A stretch of DNA of 50,687 bases from Rhodovarius lipocyclicus. GTDB lineage: Bacteria > Pseudomonadota > Alphaproteobacteria > Acetobacterales > Acetobacteraceae. The stretch spans positions 1 to 50,687 of the forward strand of contig NZ_JAAABL010000027.1 in assembly GCF_009900765.1 (NCBI RefSeq), read 5' to 3'. Below, in pieces: positions 8,196 through 21,287 of the stretch; position 1 is the first letter of the stretch, and each line of letters starts with the position of its first letter. The translations under genes were made by a program, and so were the position numbers. The notes beneath the pieces are model-generated. The model searched no databases. It was not told the DNA's origin and worked only from the letters and a program-made list of their open reading frames with translations.

Positions 8196-8885
8196 TTAGT
8201 TACTGAAATACCCAGGAAACCTTGCCTGCAGCCGCGGCGCTTCCGCCAGGCTGCCTGACAGGTGGCGGCGCATCGCCGCCTCCGCCGCCGCGGTATCCCC
8301 CGCGGCGATCGCCGCGATCACCGCGCCATGCTCGGCCAGGATCGCTTCCGGCTTGCCTTGCTCCGGCAGGTGCAGCCGCCGCAGCCGGTCCAGATGGCCC
8401 GAGCGGCTGGCCACCAGCGCCCGCAGCCCGCCCACCCCGGCCGCCTCATGCAGCAGGGCGTGGAAAGTCTCATCCCCCGCGCTGAAACCGGCCATGTCGT
8501 CCGCCAGGAATTCACCGCGCATCCGGGCCAGGTCGCCCTCCAGCCGCGCCGGCAGGCCGGGGTCGGCCTTTTCCGCCAGCCGGCGCACCACCGCGCATTC
8601 CACCGCCATGCGCAGGAAGGCGGCCTCCCGGCACTGATGCAGGTCGATCCGCGCAACGCGGGTGGCCGATTGCGGCACCACCTCCACCAGCCCTTCCTCC
8701 CCCAGGCGGATCAGCGCCTCCCGCACCGGGGTCTGGCTCACGCCCAGGGAGGTTGCCAGTTCCTGCCGCGACAGCCGCGCGCCCGGCAGCAGTTCCAGCG
8801 CCACGATGGCGCGGCGCAGGGCCTGATACGCGCCCTCGGCGGCCGAGGGGCGGGCGGGGATCGGGGGAAGTGCGCTGCCATCCAT
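8196..8885 (-). CDS. GntR family regulator (FadR/FCD subfamily)
   Basis: 229 aa. The N-terminal winged HTH (about residues 15-80) contains LSRQELATSLGVSQTPVREAL, the GntR signature. The C-terminal helical FCD domain (about 90-220) has Asp/His-rich positions that bind small carboxylates. The ATG at 8885 follows AGGCGAG; an in-frame TTG 48 bases upstream is less likely. It diverges from a Bug receptor, dehydratase and RraA-family genes, so it probably represses that catabolic operon and releases DNA on binding a sugar acid or related acid (inference). Confidence 0.88.
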   Translation of the reverse strand: MDGSALPPIPARPSAAEGAYQALRRAIVALELLPGARLSRQELATSLGVSQTPVREALIRLGEEGLVEVVPQSATRVARIDLHQCREAAFLRMAVECAVVRRLAEKADPGLPARLEGDLARMRGEFLADDMAGFSAGDETFHALLHEAAGVGGLRALVASRSGHLDRLRRLHLPEQGKPEAILAEHGAVIAAIAAGDTAAAEAAMRRHLSGSLAEAPRLQARFPGYFSN

Positions 8886-8914
8886 CACGGAAAACTCGCC
8901 TTGCGACTGAGAAA

Positions 8915-8926
8915 CTGATATATTAG
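8915..8926. promoter_or_regulatory. Likely GntR operator (near-palindrome)
   Basis: CTGATATATTAG matches its own reverse complement at 10 of 12 positions and is flanked by GAAA and TTTC, which extend the symmetry. It sits in the only AT-rich part of the 82-base gap between the divergent gntR and Bug genes, where FCD-type repressors usually bind. The site is inferred. Confidence 0.5.
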
Positions 8927-8967
8927 ATTTCAAACCATAAAATCAAACGTCCAGGACACCCCATATC

Positions 8968-9918
8968 ATGCGCCTGCCTCGCCGCAGCCTTTTTGCCATC
9001 GGCCTAGCCGCGCCCGCCGCCGCGCAGGGCTGGCCCAGCCAGCCCGTGCGCCTGCTGATCCCCTTCGCCGCCGGCACCACCGACACGGTCGCCCGCCTGG
9101 TCACGGCCGAGATGGCCAAGACCCTGCCCGCCACCATCGTGGCCGAGAATCGCCCCGGCGCCGGCGGCGCGCTGGGGGCCGAGGCCTGCGCCCGCGCGGC
9201 CCCCGATGGCTACACCCTGTGCATGGGCACCATTTCCAGCCACGCCATCAACCCGGCGATCATGGCCCGCCTGCCCTATGACGTGGCGCGGGATTTCGCG
9301 CCGGTCACCCAATTGGCGGCCCAACCCAACGCCATCGCGGTCAGCAACAATTTCCCCGCGCGCGACATCCCCACCCTGATCGCCCGGCTGCGGGAACGCG
9401 GCGATGAGGCCTTCGGCACCTCGGGCGTCGGCACCTCCGTGCATCTGGCGGGCGCGCTGTTCGCGCAGATGGCGGGCGTCAGCCTGACCCATGTGCCCTA
9501 TCGCGGCAGCGCGGGCGTCGCCACCGCGCTGATGTCGGGCGAATTGCCCATGGCCTTCGACAACCTCTCCTCCGTGCTGCCCCTGGCGCAGGAGGGCAAG
9601 CTGCGCGTGCTGGCCGTCACCTCCACCACCCGCAACCCGGCCGCCCCCGGCATCCCGGCCCTGGCCGAGACCCTGCCGGGTTTCGAGAGTGTCTCCTGGC
9701 ACGGGCTGTTCGCGCCCGCGGCCGTGCCCGCGCCGATCATCGCCCGGCTGCACCAGTCGGCCGTGGCCGCGCTGGCCACCCCGGCGGTGCGGGACCGCTT
9801 CGCGGCGCTCGGCATCACGCCCGTGGGCAGCACGCCCGCCGACTTCACCCGCTTCATCGCCGCCGAGACCACCCGTTGGGGTGGGGTTGCGCGCGCGGCC
9901 AACATCCGCCTGGATTGA
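8968..9918 (+). CDS. Bug/TctC-family periplasmic solute receptor
   Basis: 316 aa. A short signal peptide ends near APAAAQG. The mature protein starts WPSQPVRLLIPFAAGTTDT and has the Bug landmarks ENRPGAGG, APDGYTL and VPYRGS. These receptors bind carboxylates or related small acids in the periplasm for tripartite tricarboxylate transporters. No TctA or TctB gene is adjacent, which is common for orphan Bug proteins that share a distant transporter or act as sensors. It is first in a likely operon with the dehydratase and RraA genes, whose substrate it may capture. Confidence 0.9.
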   Translation: MRLPRRSLFAIGLAAPAAAQGWPSQPVRLLIPFAAGTTDTVARLVTAEMAKTLPATIVAENRPGAGGALGAEACARAAPDGYTLCMGTISSHAINPAIMARLPYDVARDFAPVTQLAAQPNAIAVSNNFPARDIPTLIARLRERGDEAFGTSGVGTSVHLAGALFAQMAGVSLTHVPYRGSAGVATALMSGELPMAFDNLSSVLPLAQEGKLRVLAVTSTTRNPAAPGIPALAETLPGFESVSWHGLFAPAAVPAPIIARLHQSAVAALATPAVRDRFAALGITPVGSTPADFTRFIAAETTRWGGVARAANIRLD

Positions 9919-9940
9919 ACCCATGAGGAAAAGTCCACCA

Positions 9941-11671
9941 ATGAGAAAAAGCCCGGGGGAGCTCCGCTCCGCCCGCTGGTTCGGACCTGCCGATCTGCGC
10001 AGCTTCGGCCACCGCTCCCGCGCCATGCAGATGGGCCTGTCGCCCGAGGAATGGCGCGGCAAGCCCATCATCGGCATCGTCAACACCTGGTCGGACATCA
10101 ACCCGTGCCACACCCATCTGCGCGCCCGCGCGGAGGACGTGAAGCGCGGCATCCTGATGGCCGGCGGCCTGCCGATCGAACTGCCGGCGATCTCGGTTTC
10201 CGAGAGCTTCCAGAAGCCCACGACCATGCTCTACCGCAACTTCCTGGCGATGGAGACGGAGGAGCTGTTGCGCTCCCACCCCATCGACGGCGCGGTGCTG
10301 CTGGGCGGCTGCGACAAATCCACGCCGGGCCTGACCATGGGCGCCATCAGCATGGACATCCCCACCATCTTCGTGCCCGCGGGCCCGATGCTGCGCGGGC
10401 ATTTCCAGGGCAAGACGCTGGGCTCGGGCTCCGACAGCTGGAAATACTGGGATGAGCTGCGCGCCGGCACCATCACGGAGGCCGATTGGGCGGGTGTGGA
10501 GGCCGGCATCGCCCGCAGCCACGGCACCTGCATGACCATGGGCACGGCCAGCACCATGACGGCCATCGCCGAATCGGTCGGCCTGACCCTGCCGGGCGGC
10601 AGCTCCATCCCGGCCGCCGATTCGGGCCATATCCGCCTGTGCTCGGAATCCGGGCGGCGGATCGTGGAGATGGTGTGGGAGGATCTGAAGCCCTCGAAGA
10701 TCCTGACCAAGCAATCCTTCGAGAACGCCATCGCGGTGGCCATGGCCATGGGCTGTTCGACCAACGCCATCATCCATCTGATCGCCATGGGCCGGCGTGC
10801 CGGGCTCGATGTCAGCCTGGATGACTTCGAGAACTATTCCCGCCGGGTGCCGGTCATCGGCAATGTGCGCCCCACCGGCAGCCAGTATCTGATGGAGGAT
10901 TTCTTCTACGCCGGCGGCATCCGCGCCCTGATGGGCAATATCCGCGAGCATCTGCACCTGGATTGCCTGACCGTGACCGGCAAGACGGTGGCCGAGAACA
11001 TCGAGGGTGCGCGCGTCTACAACGACGACGTGATCCGCACCCAGGACCGCGCGATCTACCGCGAGGGGTCGCTGGCGGTGCTGAAGGGCAATCTCTCGCC
11101 CGATGGCTGCGTGATCAAGCCGGGGGCGATGGACCAGAAGTTCCTGAAGCACAGCGGCCCGGCGCTCGTTTTCGACGACTACCCCAGCATGAAGAAGGCG
11201 GTGGAGGACGAGAACCTCGACATCACGCCCGACCATGTGCTGGTGCTGCGCAACGCGGGCCCGCAGGGCGGCCCCGGCATGCCCGAATGGGGCATGCTGC
11301 CCATGCCGAAGAAGCTGCTAAAGATGGGCATCCGCGACATGCTGCGGCTGTCGGATGCGCGGATGTCCGGCACCTCCTATGGCGCCTGCGTGCTGCATGT
11401 CTCGCCCGAGAGCTATGTGGGCGGCCCCCTCGCGCTGCTGCGCACGGGCGACATCATCACCATCGATGTGGATGCCCGCCGCATCGACATGGAGGTGAGC
11501 GAGGAAGAGCTCGCCGCCCGCCGTGCCGCCTGGACGCCCCCACCGAAGCGCTATGAGCGCGGCTATGGCTGGATGTTCAGCCAGCACATCCAACAGGCGC
11601 ATATCGGCGCCGATTTCGACTTCCTGCGCACCGATTTCGGCGCGCCGGTCTCCGAACCCGTCATTTATTGA
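9941..11671 (+). CDS. IlvD/Edd-family dehydratase (sugar-acid type)
   Basis: 576 aa. Iron-sulfur dehydratase that removes water from a 2,3-dihydroxy acid to give a 2-keto-3-deoxy acid. The cluster Cys are visible as Cys56 (NPCHTH), Cys124 (GGCDKSTPG, with the Mg-binding Lys126) and Cys197 (GTCMTMG). Spacing is that of the L-arabinonate/D-xylonate branch rather than IlvD itself. Two near-identical starts exist, ATG 9923 and ATG 9941; AGGA at 9926-9929 favours 9941. Grouping with a GntR regulator, a Bug receptor and an RraA protein suggests catabolism of an aldonic acid. The exact substrate cannot be read. Confidence 0.9.
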   Translation: MRKSPGELRSARWFGPADLRSFGHRSRAMQMGLSPEEWRGKPIIGIVNTWSDINPCHTHLRARAEDVKRGILMAGGLPIELPAISVSESFQKPTTMLYRNFLAMETEELLRSHPIDGAVLLGGCDKSTPGLTMGAISMDIPTIFVPAGPMLRGHFQGKTLGSGSDSWKYWDELRAGTITEADWAGVEAGIARSHGTCMTMGTASTMTAIAESVGLTLPGGSSIPAADSGHIRLCSESGRRIVEMVWEDLKPSKILTKQSFENAIAVAMAMGCSTNAIIHLIAMGRRAGLDVSLDDFENYSRRVPVIGNVRPTGSQYLMEDFFYAGGIRALMGNIREHLHLDCLTVTGKTVAENIEGARVYNDDVIRTQDRAIYREGSLAVLKGNLSPDGCVIKPGAMDQKFLKHSGPALVFDDYPSMKKAVEDENLDITPDHVLVLRNAGPQGGPGMPEWGMLPMPKKLLKMGIRDMLRLSDARMSGTSYGACVLHVSPESYVGGPLALLRTGDIITIDVDARRIDMEVSEEELAARRAAWTPPPKRYERGYGWMFSQHIQQAHIGADFDFLRTDFGAPVSEPVIY

Positions 11672-11679
11672 GGGCCGCG

Positions 11680-12390
11680 ATGAACCCCGAAACCCGCGCG
11701 AAGCTGAAGCGCGTCTCCACCGCCACGCTGGCGACCGCGCTGTTCAAGCGCGGCCTGCGCCAGCAGATGATCCAGGGCGTGCAGCCGCTGCGCACCTTCG
11801 GCGAGAGCATGGTCGGCCCCGCCTTCACCCTGCGCTATATCCCCGCGCGGGAGGATCTGAACACGCTGGATGCCTTCCGCGACCCCAACCATCCCCAACG
11901 CCTGGGGGTGGAAACCTGCCCCGCCGGCCATGTGATGGTGATGGACAGCCGCAAGGACGCCCGGGCGGCCAGCGCCGGGGGCATCCTCGTCACCCGCCTG
12001 ATGGCGCGGGGCGTGGAGGGTGTCGTCACCGATGGCGGCTTCCGCGACAGCGCGGAGATCGCGGGGCTCGATATCTGGGCCTTCCACACCCGGCCCTCGG
12101 CGCCCACGAACCTGACGCTGAACCACGCCATCGCGCTGAATGAGCCGATCGCCTGCGGCGACGCGCCGGTCTTTCCGGGCGACATCCTGGTGGGCGACGC
12201 CGATGGCGTGATCGTGCTGCCCGCGCATCTGGCCGAGCAACTGGCCGAGGAAGCCACTGAAATGACGGCCTATGAGGATTTCGCCACGGAGCGGGTGCGG
12301 GCGGGCCATACCATCCGCGGCCTGTATCCGGCGACGGACCCGGCCAACCTGGAACTGTTCAAGGAATGGCGTATGGCGAACGGGCGCTGA
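11680..12390 (+). CDS. RraA/HMG-aldolase-family protein
   Basis: 236 aa. The family fold includes regulators of RNase E and 4-hydroxy-4-methyl-2-oxoglutarate/oxaloacetate aldolases. TDGGFRD carries the metal-site Arg-Asp, and GDILVGDADGVIVLP is the conserved C-terminal motif. The ATG at 11680 lies eight bases after the dehydratase stop, with GAGGG overlapping that stop. A product of the upstream dehydratase, or a later retro-aldol step, is the likely substrate. It is too long, and in the wrong context, for the true RNase E regulator. Confidence 0.85.
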   Translation: MNPETRAKLKRVSTATLATALFKRGLRQQMIQGVQPLRTFGESMVGPAFTLRYIPAREDLNTLDAFRDPNHPQRLGVETCPAGHVMVMDSRKDARAASAGGILVTRLMARGVEGVVTDGGFRDSAEIAGLDIWAFHTRPSAPTNLTLNHAIALNEPIACGDAPVFPGDILVGDADGVIVLPAHLAEQLAEEATEMTAYEDFATERVRAGHTIRGLYPATDPANLELFKEWRMANGR

Positions 12391-16183: not shown

Positions 16184-17527
16184 ATGTCCAACCCCGGCGA
16201 AGCCGACCCCACGCCGGTCGAGAATGCGCGCCAGCTTGCCGAGTGGTTCGCCGCCGGCGAGAAGCCGCGCAGTGCCTGGAGCATCGGCACCGAGCACGAG
16301 AAGTTCGGCTTCCGCCGCGCGGACCTCACGCCCCCCGCCTATACCCCCCGGGGCATCGAGGCGATGCTGCACGGCCTGATGGGGCTGGGCTGGGAGCCGA
16401 TCGAGGACCAGGGCCATGTCATCGGCCTGAAGCGCAACGGCGCCTCCGTCAGCCTGGAGCCGGGCGGGCAGCTCGAACTCTCGGGCGGGATGATGCCCGA
16501 CCTGCACGCCGCTTGGGATGAGCTGAAGGCGCATCTGCGGGAGGTGCACCAGATCGCGGGGCCGCTCGACCTCGGCTTCTCGCTGCTGGGCTTCCACCCG
16601 CTGGTGACGCGCGACGCGATGCCGTGGATGCCGAAATCCCGCTACAAGATCATGCGCCGCTACATGCCGCTGAAGGGCAAGCTCGGCCTCGACATGATGC
16701 TGCGCACCTGCACCGTTCAGGTGAACCTGGATTTCGGCACCGAGGCCGACATGGCCGAGAAGCTGCGCCTGTCGCTGGCGTTGCAGCCGGTGGCGACCGC
16801 GCTGTTCGCCAATTCCCCCTTCATCGAGGGCAAGCCCTCCGGCCTGCTCTCCGCGCGCGCCAATGTCTGGACGGACACCGACCCCGACCGCACCGGCATC
16901 CCGGCCTGCGTGTTCGAGCCGGGCTTCGGCTTCGAGCGCTTCGTGCAGTATGTGCTGGACGTGCCGATGTATTTCGTGGCGCGCGAGGGCGAATTGATCG
17001 ACGTGGCGGGGCAGAGCTTCCGCGACTTCATGGCGGGCCGCCTGCCCGGCCTGCCCGGCGAGGTCGCCACCATGGGCGACTGGGCCGACCATGTGACCAC
17101 CGTGTTCAGCGATGTGCGGCTGAAGCGCTTCCTGGAGATGCGCGGCTCCGACGCCGGCTCCCCCGCCATGTTGCAGGCCCAGCCCGCGCTGTGGGTGGGG
17201 CTGATCTATGACGACGCCGCCCAGAAGGCCGCCGCGGCGCTCACGCGCGACTGGACGCTGGAGGACGTGCGCCAGCTGCGGCTGGACGCGCCCAAGACCG
17301 GCCTGCAGGCGCGCATCAAGGGCCGTAGCGTGCGGGAAGTGGCGGCCGATGTGCTGGCCATCGCGCGCGATGGGCTGAAGGCGCGCGGCCTGGGCGAGGA
17401 CGTCTATCTGGCGCCGCTGAATGAGATCGTGGCCAGCGGCAAGACCCAGGCCGACCGGCTGCTGGACCTGTTCCACGGTGCCTGGAAGGGCGATGCGGGC
17501 AAGGCGCTGACAGCGACCGAGGCATGA
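16184..17527 (+). CDS. gshA: Glutamate-cysteine ligase, plant/alphaproteobacterial type
   Basis: First step of glutathione synthesis, ATP-dependent joining of Glu and Cys. 447 aa. IGTEHEKFGF near the N-terminus, EPGGQLELSG, and the Cys-containing MMLRTCTVQVNLDF are typical of the GshA group shared by plants and alphaproteobacteria, which has no sequence likeness to the E. coli enzyme. The ATG at 16184 has AGGA eight bases upstream. A strong hairpin terminator follows at once. Confidence 0.95.
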   Translation: MSNPGEADPTPVENARQLAEWFAAGEKPRSAWSIGTEHEKFGFRRADLTPPAYTPRGIEAMLHGLMGLGWEPIEDQGHVIGLKRNGASVSLEPGGQLELSGGMMPDLHAAWDELKAHLREVHQIAGPLDLGFSLLGFHPLVTRDAMPWMPKSRYKIMRRYMPLKGKLGLDMMLRTCTVQVNLDFGTEADMAEKLRLSLALQPVATALFANSPFIEGKPSGLLSARANVWTDTDPDRTGIPACVFEPGFGFERFVQYVLDVPMYFVAREGELIDVAGQSFRDFMAGRLPGLPGEVATMGDWADHVTTVFSDVRLKRFLEMRGSDAGSPAMLQAQPALWVGLIYDDAAQKAAAALTRDWTLEDVRQLRLDAPKTGLQARIKGRSVREVAADVLAIARDGLKARGLGEDVYLAPLNEIVASGKTQADRLLDLFHGAWKGDAGKALTATEA

Positions 17528-17529
17528 AA

Positions 17530-17558
17530 AAGGGGGGCCGGAGCCCCCCTTATTTCTT
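17530..17558. terminator. Bidirectional terminator between gshA and the ferredoxin operon
   Basis: AAGGGGGGC and GCCCCCCTT form a perfect nine-base-pair stem (17530-17551) with loop CGGA. ATTTCTT follows on the plus strand and TTTCAT follows on the minus strand. It begins three bases after the gshA stop, and the last codon of the convergent ferredoxin gene (stop at 17550-17552) lies inside the stem, so one hairpin serves both genes. Confidence 0.85.
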
Positions 17559-17852
17559 CACCCAGCTGATCGTCACATCCCCGCTCACGAAGGTCTGGCA
17601 CGCCATCCGGTATCCGGCGTCCAGGTCTTCCTGGGTCAGGTGCTTCAATTCCTTGGGCTTCACCTTGTCGGCGTGCTCGATGCCGACATCGATATGGCAG
17701 CGGCAGGTGCCGCACAGCCCGCCGCCGCATTTGAACGGCACGCCACCCTTCTCCCGGATCGAGACCCGCAGCAGGTTGGCACCCTTATCCGCCTGCACCA
17801 CCTTGTTGTCGTTGGTGGCGAACGTCACGCTGATCCGCTCGGCAGCCTCCAT
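17550..17852 (-). CDS. [2Fe-2S] ferredoxin (distal gene of the diiron-oxidase operon)
   Basis: 100 aa, plant/adrenodoxin-like fold. Cluster Cys at 42, 47, 50 and 85 give C-x4-C-x2-C-x34-C (KCGGGLCGTC and later MAC). It carries one electron at a time in the cytoplasm. The ATG at 17852 overlaps the stop of the small upstream gene by one base (TGATG). It is the last of four co-oriented genes headed by a diiron oxidase, for which it is a likely electron donor. It differs clearly in sequence from the other ferredoxin of the operon. Confidence 0.9.
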   Translation of the reverse strand: MEAAERISVTFATNDNKVVQADKGANLLRVSIREKGGVPFKCGGGLCGTCRCHIDVGIEHADKVKPKELKHLTQEDLDAGYRMACQTFVSGDVTISWVKK

Positions 17853-18154
17853 CAGGCGGCCGCGGCCTTCAGCTCGGCAGGCATGTTGCCGTAGGTGGTC
17901 AGCGTGCGCAGTTCCTTGCGGGCATCCTCGACACTGTCGAAGCTTTCCAGGAACTTGGTGGGCACGGAGTTCACCGGCCCCGTCTCGTCGATGATCCGCA
18001 CGCGGCTGGCGGCGGATAGTTCGGCGATGACGAATTTCGCACGGATGTTGCCGCAGAACAGATAGTCCCACGCCTCCACCGGCGTCAGGCCCGGCCCGGG
18101 CTCGGTGCGGAACTGGCCGGGCTTGCTGGTCAGGATCACGTACATCGCGCTCAC
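17852..18154 (-). CDS. Small unknown protein between two ferredoxins
   Basis: 100 aa, not recognised. It starts MSAMYVILTSKPGQF with GTG at 18154 overlapping the upstream ferredoxin stop by four bases (GTGA); an internal ATG three codons in is an alternative. It has one Cys, no membrane segment, a beta-strand-like first half (FVIAELSAASRVRIIDET) and a helical C-terminus rich in Glu/Lys. The strict coupling on both sides suggests a partner or scaffold of the oxidase-ferredoxin system rather than an enzyme. No function is proposed beyond that. Confidence 0.7.
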   Translation of the reverse strand: MSAMYVILTSKPGQFRTEPGPGLTPVEAWDYLFCGNIRAKFVIAELSAASRVRIIDETGPVNSVPTKFLESFDSVEDARKELRTLTTYGNMPAELKAAAA

Positions 18155-18441
18155 TCCTGCTCGATCGTCAGGTCATGCGTCAGCCACAGCTGGCACATCA
18201 GCCGATACCCTTCGTCGAGCTTGGCGCCGAGGCGCTCACGCTCCTTCCAGTTGGGTTCCGGCAGATGCTCCGCCCCCGCGATGACGCGCGACGTGCACTT
18301 GGTGCATTTGCCCATGCCGCACCCGTATTTCAGGTGCGGAAACGGGAACTTCTTGATGCCGGCGCGGACGACGAGGTTCGCGTTGTCGGGAACCTCGCCG
18401 GTGTGATCCTCGCCGGCCCTGCGGACAGTGACCTGCGGCAA
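18151..18441 (-). CDS. [2Fe-2S] ferredoxin (proximal gene of the diiron-oxidase operon)
   Basis: 96 aa. Cluster Cys at 41, 46, 49 and 83 (YGCGMGKCTKC and later LMC) give C-x4-C-x2-C-x33-C. The start appears to be TTG at 18441, only three bases after the oxidase stop, with no in-frame ATG until inside the cluster loop. A TTG start between tightly packed genes suggests deliberately lower translation. The protein is more basic near the cluster than the other ferredoxin of the operon, so the two may serve different steps or partners. Confidence 0.88.
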   Translation of the reverse strand: MPQVTVRRAGEDHTGEVPDNANLVVRAGIKKFPFPHLKYGCGMGKCTKCTSRVIAGAEHLPEPNWKERERLGAKLDEGYRLMCQLWLTHDLTIEQE

Positions 18442-18444
18442 GGA

Positions 18445-19170
18445 TCAGGCCGCTTGCGCCACGGTGCCCTGCTCGGGCTCCACGTAATCGCGATACAGCG
18501 CGTTGGTGTAGAGCAGGCGCATCTCGGCGCCGATCTCGCAGATGCGCAGGCACTTCTGCTGCAGCTCCACCGTGGTCGCGTGCTCCAGCACGATCTGGTA
18601 GCCGCGCTCGCCATGGATCTCGTCGGAGACGATGTGCAGGTCGAAGAACTCCACCTCCTCGTCGGTGAAGCCATACTTCTCGCGCAGGGTCGGGGTCTGG
18701 CGGCGATAGATGCTGGGCACCTGGCTTTCCAGGCCCACCACCAAGCCGGCGACGGCCACAATCGGGTGCTCGCGCTGGGCCACCGTGTAGCACCAGGCCT
18801 GCAGGGCGCGGGTGGTGGTGGACATGTTGTCGGGGTCGATCACGCGCTCACGCGTCGTGCCGCAGGCCTCGGCGAAGCGGATCAGCAGGTCGGTGTGGCG
18901 GGTGCCGCCGATCTCTTCCTCATACATGTTGGCCAGCAGGAAGTCCTTGGCCTCCAGATACTCGTGCGGCATGCGGGCATAGACCAGCGCCAGGTATTCG
19001 GCGAAGGGGCCGACATAGTGGTAGTGGTTCTCGGCCCAACGGGAGAGCTGGGCGCGCGTCAGCGTGCCGGAGGCCCAGGCCTTGGAGAAGGGAGAGCCGT
19101 TCGCGCTCTTGCCCTTGATGGCGTTTTCGAGCGCGGTGCGGAACTCGTCGGGATTCATCACTTCGGGCAT
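18445..19170 (-). CDS. Haem-oxygenase-like diiron oxidase (HDO; CADD/TENA-PqqC fold)
   Basis: 241 aa. Helical protein of the iron-containing redox enzyme family. A full set of candidate diiron ligands is visible: Glu85 and His92 (E-x6-H), Glu148 (in GLESQVP), His179, Asp183 and His186 (H-x3-D-x2-H in HIVSDEIHG). The spacing is almost that of Chlamydia CADD. Relatives do N-oxygenation, C-C cleavage or p-aminobenzoate synthesis with O2. CADD's sacrificial Tyr27 aligns with Ser29 here (alignment from memory), so that self-consuming route is unlikely. Two ferredoxins directly downstream point to a catalytic oxygenase fed with electrons. Substrate unknown. Confidence 0.85.
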   Translation of the reverse strand: MPEVMNPDEFRTALENAIKGKSANGSPFSKAWASGTLTRAQLSRWAENHYHYVGPFAEYLALVYARMPHEYLEAKDFLLANMYEEEIGGTRHTDLLIRFAEACGTTRERVIDPDNMSTTTRALQAWCYTVAQREHPIVAVAGLVVGLESQVPSIYRRQTPTLREKYGFTDEEVEFFDLHIVSDEIHGERGYQIVLEHATTVELQQKCLRICEIGAEMRLLYTNALYRDYVEPEQGTVAQAA

Positions 19171-19245
19171 GGCCTGACTCCGGCTGGCTGGTGGCTGCCC
19201 AAACGGTATACAATCTACAAACGGGGCGCAACGGCTTTGTTTGCG
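19171..19245 (-). promoter_or_regulatory. Promoter region of the diiron-oxidase operon with direct repeats
   Basis: CAAACGG occurs twice on the plus strand (19200-19206 and 19218-19224), start to start 18 bases, i.e. CCGTTTG direct repeats reading toward the operon. A TATACC that could be a -10 element lies between and over the repeats on the minus strand. The layout resembles a regulator site overlapping a promoter; the regulator is unknown. Confidence 0.35.
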
Positions 19246-20226
19246 CTATCTCAACTCCTCCAGCGAGAGGTTGGCCTCCCGGATCACCCGCGCCCAGCGG
19301 TCGCTTTCGGTGGCCAGCAGCCCGTCGATCACCCCTTGCGGCTCCGGCTGGCGCACCTGCACGCCGAAATTGGCGAAACGCTGCTGGAAGGCGCTGCCCG
19401 CGGTGGCGTCGGCGATCGCGCCGCGCAGCCGCTCCACCACGGGTTCTGGCGTCGCGCGCGGCACGGCGATGCCGAACCAGGTGCTGGCCTGGATCTGCGG
19501 GAAACCCTGCTCGGCCATGGTGGGCACATCGGGCAGCTGCGGCAGCCGCTCGGCGGAGGTGATGGCAATGGCGCGAAGCTTGCCATCGGCCAGCAAGGGC
19601 CGCACGCTGCCCACCACGTCGAACATCAAATCCGCATCGCCCGATTGCAGCGCCAGATAGCTGGGGGCGGAGCCGTTGTAGATCACGCTCGTCATGTCCA
19701 CGCCGGCAGCCAGGCGGAACATCTCGCCCGAGAGCTGCAAGGGATTGCCGCGGCCCACGGCGGCGAAGGTCAGCCCCTCGCGCTTGGCGCGGCCATGCGC
19801 CACGAGGTCCGCCACGCTGCGGATGGGCGAGGCGCCGTTCACCACCATCACGAAGGGCATGTCCACCAGGATGGCGATGACGCGCAGGTCGCGCCGCACA
19901 TCCACCGGCATGCGGGCGTAGATCAGCGGGTTCACGATATAGCCGGCGCCGCTGGTCATCAGGATGGTGTAGCCATCGGGCGCGGCCTGGGCGGCCAATT
20001 GGCTGGCAATGATGGTGTTGGCGCCGGGGCGGTTCTCGGCCACCACGGCCTGGCCCAGCGGCGCGCCCATGCCCTGGGCCACGCTGCGGGCCAGCACATC
20101 GGTCATGCCGCCGGGGGCATAGGGCACCAGCATCCGCAGCGGGCGCTGCGGGTATTCCTGCTGGGCCAGGGCGGGGCCGGCCGCCAAGGGCAGGGCCAGC
20201 GCCGCGCGGCGGGTGGCGCGGATCAC
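19246..20226 (-). CDS. Bug/TctC-family periplasmic solute receptor
   Basis: 326 aa from GTG 20226, which overlaps the nitronate monooxygenase stop by four bases (GTGA) and gives a clean signal peptide ending GPALAQ. Family landmarks: YPQRPLRMLVPYAPGGMTDV, ENRPGANT, APDGYTI and VIYNGSAPSY. It probably binds the organic acid handled by the coupled flavoenzyme. No membrane components are adjacent. An in-frame ATG 60 bases upstream would bury the signal behind 20 polar residues and was not chosen. Confidence 0.88.
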   Translation of the reverse strand: MIRATRRAALALPLAAGPALAQQEYPQRPLRMLVPYAPGGMTDVLARSVAQGMGAPLGQAVVAENRPGANTIIASQLAAQAAPDGYTILMTSGAGYIVNPLIYARMPVDVRRDLRVIAILVDMPFVMVVNGASPIRSVADLVAHGRAKREGLTFAAVGRGNPLQLSGEMFRLAAGVDMTSVIYNGSAPSYLALQSGDADLMFDVVGSVRPLLADGKLRAIAITSAERLPQLPDVPTMAEQGFPQIQASTWFGIAVPRATPEPVVERLRGAIADATAGSAFQQRFANFGVQVRQPEPQGVIDGLLATESDRWARVIREANLSLEELR

Positions 20227-21155
20227 GCGGCCAACCCCGGCGCCGCGTTCAGCGCCGCGCGGTATTCGGCGCCCATGCGGGCGCACAGATCGGCCATGCT
20301 GGGCACATCCTGGATGGCGCCCACCCCCTGCCCCGCCGACCAGATGTTCTTCCAGGGGCGCTTGTCGTGGTCGCCCACATGCTCGCTGCGGGTTTCTGGC
20401 AGGTGGTCGGGGTCGAGGCCCGCGGCCTCGATGCTGGCGCGCAGGAAATTGGCGGGCACGCCGCTGATGGCGGGCGTGTAGACGATGTCGGCGGCACTGG
20501 CGGCCAGCACCATCTGCTTGTGGCCCTCGGGCGCCATGCTTTCCTTCACGGCGATGAAGCGCGTGCCGATATAGGCCGCATCCGCCCCCAGCAGCCGGGC
20601 GGCCGCGATCTGGCTGCCGGTGGAAATGGCCCCGCCCAGCAGCAGCGGGCCCTGCCAGATCGTCCGCAACTCCGGCACCAGGGCGAAGGCGCTGATGCGC
20701 CCGGCATGCCCGCCCGCCCCGGCGGAGACGGCGATCAGCCCATCCACCCCGGCCTCGATGGCCTTTTCCGCGTGGCGGCGGGTCGTCACATCATGGAACA
20801 CCAGCCCGCCATAGGCCTGGATGGCCTGGATCAGCTCCGGCCGCAGCCCCAGCGAGGTGATGATCAGCGGCACCTTGTGCCGGACCACGGTGGCCAGATC
20901 GGCCTCCAGCCGCGCGTTGGAACGGTGCACGATCAGGTTCACGCCATAGGGCGCGGCGCCGGCGGGCAGGCGGGCCTCGATCTCGGTCAGCCAGGCGTCG
21001 AAGCCTTCATTGGTGCGCTGGTTCAGCGCCGGGAAGGTGCCGACCACCCCGGCCTTGCAGGCCTCCACCACGTAATCGGGGCCGGAGACGAGGAATTGCG
21101 GCGCCGCGACGACAGGCACCGATAGCCTGCCCTGCCAGCTTTGCGGAAGTGGCAT
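20223..21155 (-). CDS. Nitronate monooxygenase-family flavoenzyme
   Basis: 310 aa TIM-barrel FMN protein. AVSAGAGGHAGRIS contains the catalytic His150, and GGAISTGSQIAAARLLGADAAYIGTRF is the FMN phosphate-binding end of the barrel. Family members oxidise nitronates such as propionate 3-nitronate, though many annotated ones have other or unknown substrates (enoyl reductase-like). The ATG at 21155 follows AAAGGG. It is coupled to a Bug receptor and diverges from an IclR regulator and acyl-CoA synthetase. A detoxifying or catabolic role for a nitro or unsaturated acid is inference. Confidence 0.88.
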   Translation of the reverse strand: MPLPQSWQGRLSVPVVAAPQFLVSGPDYVVEACKAGVVGTFPALNQRTNEGFDAWLTEIEARLPAGAAPYGVNLIVHRSNARLEADLATVVRHKVPLIITSLGLRPELIQAIQAYGGLVFHDVTTRRHAEKAIEAGVDGLIAVSAGAGGHAGRISAFALVPELRTIWQGPLLLGGAISTGSQIAAARLLGADAAYIGTRFIAVKESMAPEGHKQMVLAASAADIVYTPAISGVPANFLRASIEAAGLDPDHLPETRSEHVGDHDKRPWKNIWSAGQGVGAIQDVPSMADLCARMGAEYRAALNAAPGLAA

Positions 21156-21287
21156 GGTTTCAACCCTTTGCGTTATGGCGCTGGCTTGCCGCCACGCCTT
21201 GTCCTGGACGTGGGGGCAGCCTACTCCGTCATTTTTGTGTTGCCTAGCGAAACAGCCATGCCACACTCTCAGCCAGAGGAGACAACC
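21156..21287. promoter_or_regulatory. Divergent control region, nitronate monooxygenase / iclR
   Basis: 132 bases between divergent starts. It holds TGGCG-N9-CGCCA (21176-21194), a weak candidate operator, and an AT-rich stretch near 21230-21245. GAGGAGA (21277-21283) is the iclR ribosome site. No clear IclR consensus palindrome was found. Confidence 0.35.

Follow-up and report, generated by a model that had tools for sequence, protein, structure and literature searches.

The window analysed here, a stretch of 50,687 nucleotides covering positions 1 to 50,687 of contig NZ_JAAABL010000027.1 of Rhodovarius lipocyclicus, carries a four-gene unit encoding a haem-oxygenase-like diiron oxidase (HDO), a [2Fe-2S] ferredoxin (Fd1), a small protein and a second [2Fe-2S] ferredoxin (Fd2). 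In the reading that we favour, with a probability of roughly 60%, these proteins form a multicomponent oxygenase of the HDO type which opens a catabolic route, probably by way of an aldehyde, under the control of a GntR-type regulator. No description of the four-gene set or of its HDO redox partners was found in a literature search, as anticipated in an earlier model-made reading of the letters alone (the sequence-only reading); most subscription papers lay outside the reach of this search, so that absence is not proven.

Between 19170 and 17550 the minus strand carries HDO, Fd1, small protein and Fd2 in this order, followed by the terminator (Table 1). This is the gene set that the sequence-only reading had named, and it recurs in 79 related loci, in 78 of them with Fd2. 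The 3-base gap between HDO and Fd1 and the 1-base overlap between the small-protein gene and Fd2 were given correctly there, whereas the proposed 4-base overlap of Fd1 and the small-protein gene did not hold, as it needs the less likely start codon GTG 18154. From its sequence context ATG 18145 is the likelier start, with GGAG 8 bases upstream and a 5-base gap to Fd1; it also lies at most 3 residues from the protein starts of relatives in the alignment, and these, having been set by a nearest-start rule, lend it weak support. The terminator expected to close the operon is likewise evident as a GC-rich hairpin that leads into a stretch of T on the minus strand (17549-17533: GGGGGGCTCCGGCCCCC followed by CTTTTT); a corresponding hairpin was called on the plus strand, for the convergent gene. 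The terminator scan found 5 terminator-like sites as against 1.8 in shuffles, and the sigma-70 scan detected no promoter-like site.

Table 1. Features of the four-gene unit and its borders in the window.
Feature	Coordinates	Strand	Support or position
HDO, haem-oxygenase-like diiron oxidase, 241 aa	18445..19170	-	PF14518 1e-35
Fd1, [2Fe-2S] ferredoxin, 96 aa, TTG start	18151..18441	-	PF00111 5.6e-8
Small protein, 97 aa from ATG, without known family	17852..18145	-	found in 79/79 relatives
Fd2, [2Fe-2S] ferredoxin, 100 aa	17550..17852	-	PF00111 3.2e-12
Intrinsic terminator, apparently common to the convergent plus-strand gene ending at 17527	17533..17549	-	terminator scan
GTATAC core, probable GntR/FadR-type operator, context ACGGTATACAAT	19206..19211	.	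35 bases 5' of the HDO start codon

A scan of genome contigs returned 491 relatives of the HDO, of which the best 80 were kept. These represent 79 loci, among them loci from Acetobacteraceae, Hyphomicrobiales and Burkholderiales, with an HDO 81-96% identical to that of the window, a top-scoring sample which favours close relatives. By tblastn, HDO, Fd1 and the small protein are present in all 79 loci and Fd2 in 78, the sole locus without a full Fd2 (L036) being one in which the contig ends inside this gene. The order and strand of Fd1, small protein and Fd2 are kept in 78/78 four-gene loci, even when this trio stands apart from the HDO gene. The latter is located directly upstream of the trio (gap <400 bases) in 57 of the 78, is divergent and adjacent in 5, and lies apart within the locus in 16. 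One Cupriavidus basilensis locus (L070) features two HDO copies, both 84% identical to that of the window, one adjoining the ferredoxin trio and the other adjoining dehydrogenase, HbpS-like and reductase genes.

The same association is evident in three genome samples, which overlap with the 79 loci because several of the genomes are the same assemblies. Among 200 Acetobacteraceae genomes, an HDO of at least 81% identity was found in 17, with a 31% relative in one more (G082), and the small protein in the same 17. Among 398 genomes of the phylum, both were found in the same 4 (HDO at least 81% identical), with a 48% HDO relative in a further genome, G337, and among 250 Burkholderiales genomes an HDO of at least 79% was detected in 6 and the small protein in 5 of these. 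All sampled genomes with an HDO of at least 79% carry Fd1 and Fd2, as does each of the three plasmid or megaplasmid regions with such an HDO that were examined out of six (H3, H4 and H6 left out). The annotations of two Cupriavidus plasmid records show no genes at this place. Across the genome samples the ferredoxins are thus constant with the HDO, and the small protein is nearly so. A fragment of 26 residues that matches the small protein at 81% was also noted in G172 (C71:12415-12492), where the HDO search gave no match; perhaps this is the remnant of a lost unit. The sequence-only reading had taken the HDO and the two ferredoxins for a dedicated unit, to be doubted if relatives of the oxidase were usually found without the ferredoxins. 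Every HDO of at least 79% examined has both in its locus, Fd2 of L036 being cut by the contig end, and the HDOs with no such ferredoxins in the stretches read are distant relatives, of 45%, 33% and 29% identity.

The HDO matches PF03070 (4e-13) in addition to PF14518. Six putative ligands (E85, H92, E148, H179, D183, H186), a set of three histidines and three carboxylates, are invariant in 35/35 sequences including a 46% relative (L101), and align with the metal motif of CADD. The AlphaFold2 model of the HDO (pLDDT 92) has CADD as its best fold match (TM-score 0.82/0.92), followed by PqqC, TenA-like chains, UndA, HrmI and FlcD, with query-normalised TM-scores of 0.70-0.82 to CADD, UndA, HrmI and FlcD. 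Family match and model both give the protein the haem-oxygenase fold of the HDO superfamily. In the ferredoxins, the cysteines at positions 41, 46, 49 and 83 of Fd1 and at positions 42, 47, 50 and 85 of Fd2 are invariant in 18/18 and 19/19 sequences, respectively. Their isoelectric points (pI) are 7.7 for Fd1 (family median 8.3, range 6.1-9.0) and 8.3 for Fd2 (family median 8.7, range 5.4-9.4), compared to medians of 5.1 for the HDO and 4.9 for a BenC-like reductase encoded in many of the loci. Judged by median pI, ferredoxins and oxidase would be oppositely charged, which fits a role of the former as electron carriers. In MboA and MboB, an HDO and its reductase discussed below, an acidic region on the former and a complementary basic patch on the latter are reported (PMC13185094).

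Further genes recur around the unit. In the 79 loci, an HbpS-like (DUF336) protein is encoded in 73, a GntR-type regulator (at least 30% identity) in 68, a permease in 51, the reductase and a TauE-like protein in 47 each, an aldehyde dehydrogenase in 46 and an ornithine-cyclodeaminase/mu-crystallin (OCD) protein in 26; GGT-like proteins were found in 9. These counts are lower bounds because ten loci are shorter than 12 kb, and they depend on identity thresholds, the aldehyde dehydrogenase being found in 46 loci at 60% or more and, with looser clustering, in 50. Representatives from two loci (L043 and L079) served to assign the families. The reductase combines Fer2, FAD and NAD domains in the one representative; its gene is a neighbour of HDO in many betaproteobacteria as well as in some alphaproteobacteria. 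In the genome of the window, genes for GntR (44%), the HbpS-like protein (75%) and the permease (64%) lie together on another contig (C1:1028-3766), and Fer2 domains occur at ten places, two of which are Fd1 and Fd2. The suggestion that the four genes make up a self-contained system is therefore not supported: a gene for an NAD(P)H reductase is missing from the operon, the best match to the reductase in the genome is a distant one (26%), and the regulator, HbpS-like and permease genes are on that other contig.

A common putative operator core links several of these genes. A GTATAC hexamer is found at most 160 bp upstream of HDO in 69/79 loci and upstream of a permease gene preceding HDO in 8 more, i.e. 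in 77/79 altogether, compared to 136 of 15,800 segments of 160 bp drawn at random from these loci. In the window the motif occurs once, with 0.61 occurrences expected in shuffles, so that its presence alone is not unusual and its position is. Within 220 bp upstream, where divergent genes share sites, it precedes the permease gene in 50/51 cases, TauE in 35/47, the aldehyde dehydrogenase in 31/46, GntR in 28/68, Fd1 in 12/79, GGT in 3/9, the small protein in 0/79 and Fd2 in 0/78. The hexamer matches the operator consensus GTM-N0-1-KAC of the FadR subfamily (PMC4494728), and the GntR representative from L043 features PF00392 and the FCD domain PF07729. A GntR/FadR-type regulon with GTATAC as its putative operator is therefore probable. 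In two loci (L026 and L027) GTATAC is also found at 11070, 116 bases before a radical-SAM gene adjoining the HDO regulon, maybe by chance; we take this gene to be BchE-like from its appearance.

Two of the companions merit comment in their own right. The HbpS-like protein shares PF03928 with the DUF336 proteins EfgA, NahX, HbpS and the C-domain of PduO, and its PDB matches include NahX, EfgA and HbpS chains; it differs from them in forming its own subgroup tied to the HDO, in which mean column identity reaches 85% (9 sequences). Some DUF336 proteins belong to pathways in which toxic aldehydes arise, and one of them, EfgA, is a formaldehyde sensor (PMC8153426). The permease, of about 510 aa (L117 2264-3763 in the window's own genome, contig C1, and 51 loci), is well conserved (mean column identity 71%, 16 sequences). 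It could be assigned to no family in Pfam or NCBIfam, and its profile retrieved no relative from the PDB. From its sequence, it perhaps represents an undescribed transporter family.

The following mechanism would account for these patterns. The predicted diiron centre of the HDO would activate O2 on a small polar substrate, and the mostly basic ferredoxins would carry single electrons to it from an NAD(P)H reductase, which may be the BenC-like flavin/2Fe-2S protein in relatives and some other reductase in the window's genome. The two ferredoxins could dock at separate faces, pass electrons on in series, or each suit a reductase of its own. A binding partner of the small protein is probably the HDO or one of the ferredoxins, for which it would act as a coupling protein, effector or assembly factor; its absence from one Burkholderiales genome considered below suggests that it tunes rather than enables the reaction. 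A FadR-type GntR protein would control the unit and the permease through GTATAC, with the HbpS-like gene included by linkage; this control would extend in many relatives to genes for an aldehyde dehydrogenase and for an exporter of the TauE type. Joint GntR control with a permease, an HbpS-like protein, an aldehyde dehydrogenase and an exporter would thus make the HDO reaction the opening step of a catabolic route. Such a route may lead from uptake, through amide-type hydrolysis in some lineages, to oxidation by the HDO to an aldehyde and on to an acid, the linked dehydrogenase of many relatives removing the aldehyde that the HDO makes.

As to the substrate, carboxylic acids and other small ligands are bound by FadR-type regulators (PMC4494728), and hydrolases recur near the unit that differ by lineage: GGT-like in 9/79 loci, an amidase in 8, an isochorismatase-like protein in 5 and an alpha/beta hydrolase on a Caballeronia plasmid. 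The hydrolases hint at an amide, and regulator ligands and amide hydrolases together point weakly to a small acid, amide or amine. Sulfite release would be suggested by TauE/SafE-like genes (47/79 loci), by a binding protein of the SsuA family encoded close to the cluster of L043, and by a SorA-like molybdoenzyme found in 15 loci, each from Achromobacter. A sulfonate substrate was considered and not adopted, since the SorA-like gene is confined to Achromobacter in the loci examined; for that genus it is still conceivable. In its favour, the SorA-like gene of L035 lies 193 bases behind a small open reading frame (ORF) divergent from HDO, which could share the HDO operator. ORFs related to it, of about 63-99 codons (L035 7556-7852, L082 12967-13155), were found in Achromobacter and Cupriavidus (35/97 loci at E 1e-3); they adjoin GTATAC sites, gave no Pfam family, and in five Cupriavidus loci have a GTATAC of their own 31-39 bases upstream. 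They are possible further members of the regulon.

Several observations weigh against this multicomponent catabolic oxygenase. The 79 loci are not independent, because 25 of them are from Achromobacter. One genome (G752, HDO 79%) has adjacent Fd1 and Fd2 genes and an HbpS-like gene beside HDO in the absence of the small protein, which is therefore not strictly required. Ferredoxins of this kind were not found in the stretches read around distant HDOs (L102, 45%, 19 kb; L111, 33%, 3.7 kb; L018, 29%, 3.6 kb). The pI of some carriers is as low as 6.1 (Fd1) and 5.4 (Fd2). The best relatives in the window's genome of the reductase (26%), the aldehyde dehydrogenase (37%) and the OCD protein (35%) are not close ones, and the later pathway steps, taken from other lineages, may for this reason not apply there. 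In two loci (L061 and L092) GTATAC was found neither at HDO nor at the permease gene. The motif is scarce within 220 bp upstream of HbpS (5/73), OCD (2/26) and the reductase (0/47), so that their membership of the regulon rests on operon position. The exact hexamer was also not found at the GntR-HbpS locus of the window's own genome, nor in the HbpS-GntR regions of L020 and L023.

The ferredoxins could also serve merely to reduce or assemble the metal centre of the HDO on occasion, with turnover fed by general reductants as in most known HDOs, an explanation that we consider unlikely. YfaE serves class I ribonucleotide reductase in this maintenance role, and Fd2 does have a weak NCBIfam match to YfaE (3.4e-4), but its matches to PaaE, NqrF and BenC are far stronger. 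Maintenance would be in keeping with the lack of a local reductase in the window, with the formation of the two-electron product in trace amounts by MboA and Fe(II) alone, as reported (PMC13185094), and with the absence of any need for a protein effector in the HDOs studied so far, as stated in a review (PMC13108848). Nevertheless, two distinct ferredoxins in each complete locus, together with a BenC-like reductase in 47/79, resemble a chain for turnover.

It is still less probable, although conceivable, that the ferredoxins serve another enzyme such as an unlinked oxygenase and that the HDO acts alone. The trio is not directly behind HDO in 21/78 loci, and the 45% HDO of L102 has its own HbpS-like and GntR genes and no trio. 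On the other hand, the trio directly follows HDO in 57/78, the small protein occurs in the genome samples only where the HDO is present, save for the 26-residue fragment of G172, and no other oxygenase was found among those recurrent neighbours that were annotated, which is not all of them. The L102 locus (8829-10590, genome G337) is of interest by itself: its HDO is about 45% identical to that of the window and divergent from a gene for a Rieske-like protein (named by eye), and no such ferredoxins were found in its 19 kb. The link of HDO with HbpS and GntR may thus be older than that with the ferredoxins.

Comparison with CADD leaves little room for a third explanation. The solved relatives nearest to the HDO are 4-aminobenzoate synthases by sequence and CADD by fold; CADD and other such synthases (PDB 1rcw, 8va9, 9pj4) share its fold and aligned metal motif, and where the structures of HDO and CADD match, the two are about 27% identical. 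They differ in the sacrificial residues, which in CADD are Tyr27 and Lys152 (PMC11965152). In the alignment of 35 rows, Tyr27 is replaced by an invariant Ser29 and Lys152 by Gln158 (conserved at 90% or more), and NCBIfam scores are below the curated cut-offs for CADD (TIGR04305, 95.3 bits, cut-off 200), PqqC (54.5, 240) and TenA (17.8, 130). It is thus most improbable, despite these nearest relatives, that the HDO is a self-sacrificing p-aminobenzoate synthase like CADD or a relative in cofactor synthesis like PqqC and TenA.

The nearest precedent of a multicomponent HDO oxygenase as envisaged here is MboA/MboB, an HDO acetylenase with one dedicated flavin/2Fe-2S reductase from mangotoxin biosynthesis, reported in 2026 in a paper whose authors consider that it may be the first characterised pair of an HDO and its dedicated redox partner (PMC13185094). 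MboB is also named as a redox partner in a 2026 review of HDOs (PMC13108848). Both systems join an HDO to a dedicated redox partner fed by NAD(P)H, and 47/79 relatives of the window's unit carry a Fer2/FAD/NAD reductase. MboAB differs in being biosynthetic and in consisting of one HDO and one reductase, with no mention of separate ferredoxins or a small protein in the accessible text. In the window's unit, redox-partner genes are linked to HDO as in MboAB, whereas a single flavin/2Fe-2S reductase is not the partner: the constant partners are two separate ferredoxins, and no flavin/2Fe-2S reductase was found in the window.

In outline, the unit also resembles bacterial multicomponent monooxygenases, in which a ferritin-like diiron hydroxylase is served by a reductase, a ferredoxin and/or an effector (described in part in PMC13108848). 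Diiron oxygenase, Fe-S carriers, small accessory protein and, in many relatives, reductase are likewise encoded in one locus. The differences are a haem-oxygenase fold instead of a ferritin-like one, a second ferredoxin, and a small protein without a match to a solved structure or a Pfam family. Mean column identity of this protein is 50% in 46 rows, compared to 79% in 35 for the HDO, 63% in 18 for Fd1 and 55% in 19 for Fd2. Its AlphaFold2 model (pLDDT 89) displays a beta-rich fold that includes a single helix. It matched neither a Pfam family at cut-off nor any NCBIfam family, Foldseek gave no match below E 0.58 in the PDB, and the profile made from the 46-row alignment retrieved no solved relative (best E 0.62). 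These searches thus gave no match to an effector of the MmoB/DmpM type at the thresholds named, and a weak or missing match, here from an alignment limited to 46 rows, does not prove that the fold differs.

A bolder reading, with the odds rather against it, would make this HDO the first to have the parts of a multicomponent monooxygenase, i.e. oxygenase, reductase, two ferredoxins that divide the labour and a redox-inactive effector of new fold, in an aldehyde pathway watched over by a DUF336 aldehyde sensor. If true, protein-gated O2 activation would have arisen in HDOs separately from its origin in the ferritin-like diiron enzymes, and in a catabolic setting, not in the synthesis of natural products. 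The recurrent combination of HDO, two ferredoxins, small protein, permease and GntR operator makes protein-gated O2 activation testable in the HDO fold, with regulator, permease and aldehyde dehydrogenase as handles for finding the substrate.

Two other groups of genes in the window were noted. Just upstream of the HDO operon, genes for a TctC-type binding protein and a nitronate-monooxygenase-like protein are located on the minus strand (19249-21194). Rhodovarius crocodyli (L019) has the latter gene too (90%), with a different ORF in the intervening stretch and no TctC gene found. At 8196-12390, genes presumably encoding a GntR-type regulator, a TctC-type binding protein, an IlvD/Edd-type dehydratase and an RraA-like protein may constitute another catabolic cluster.

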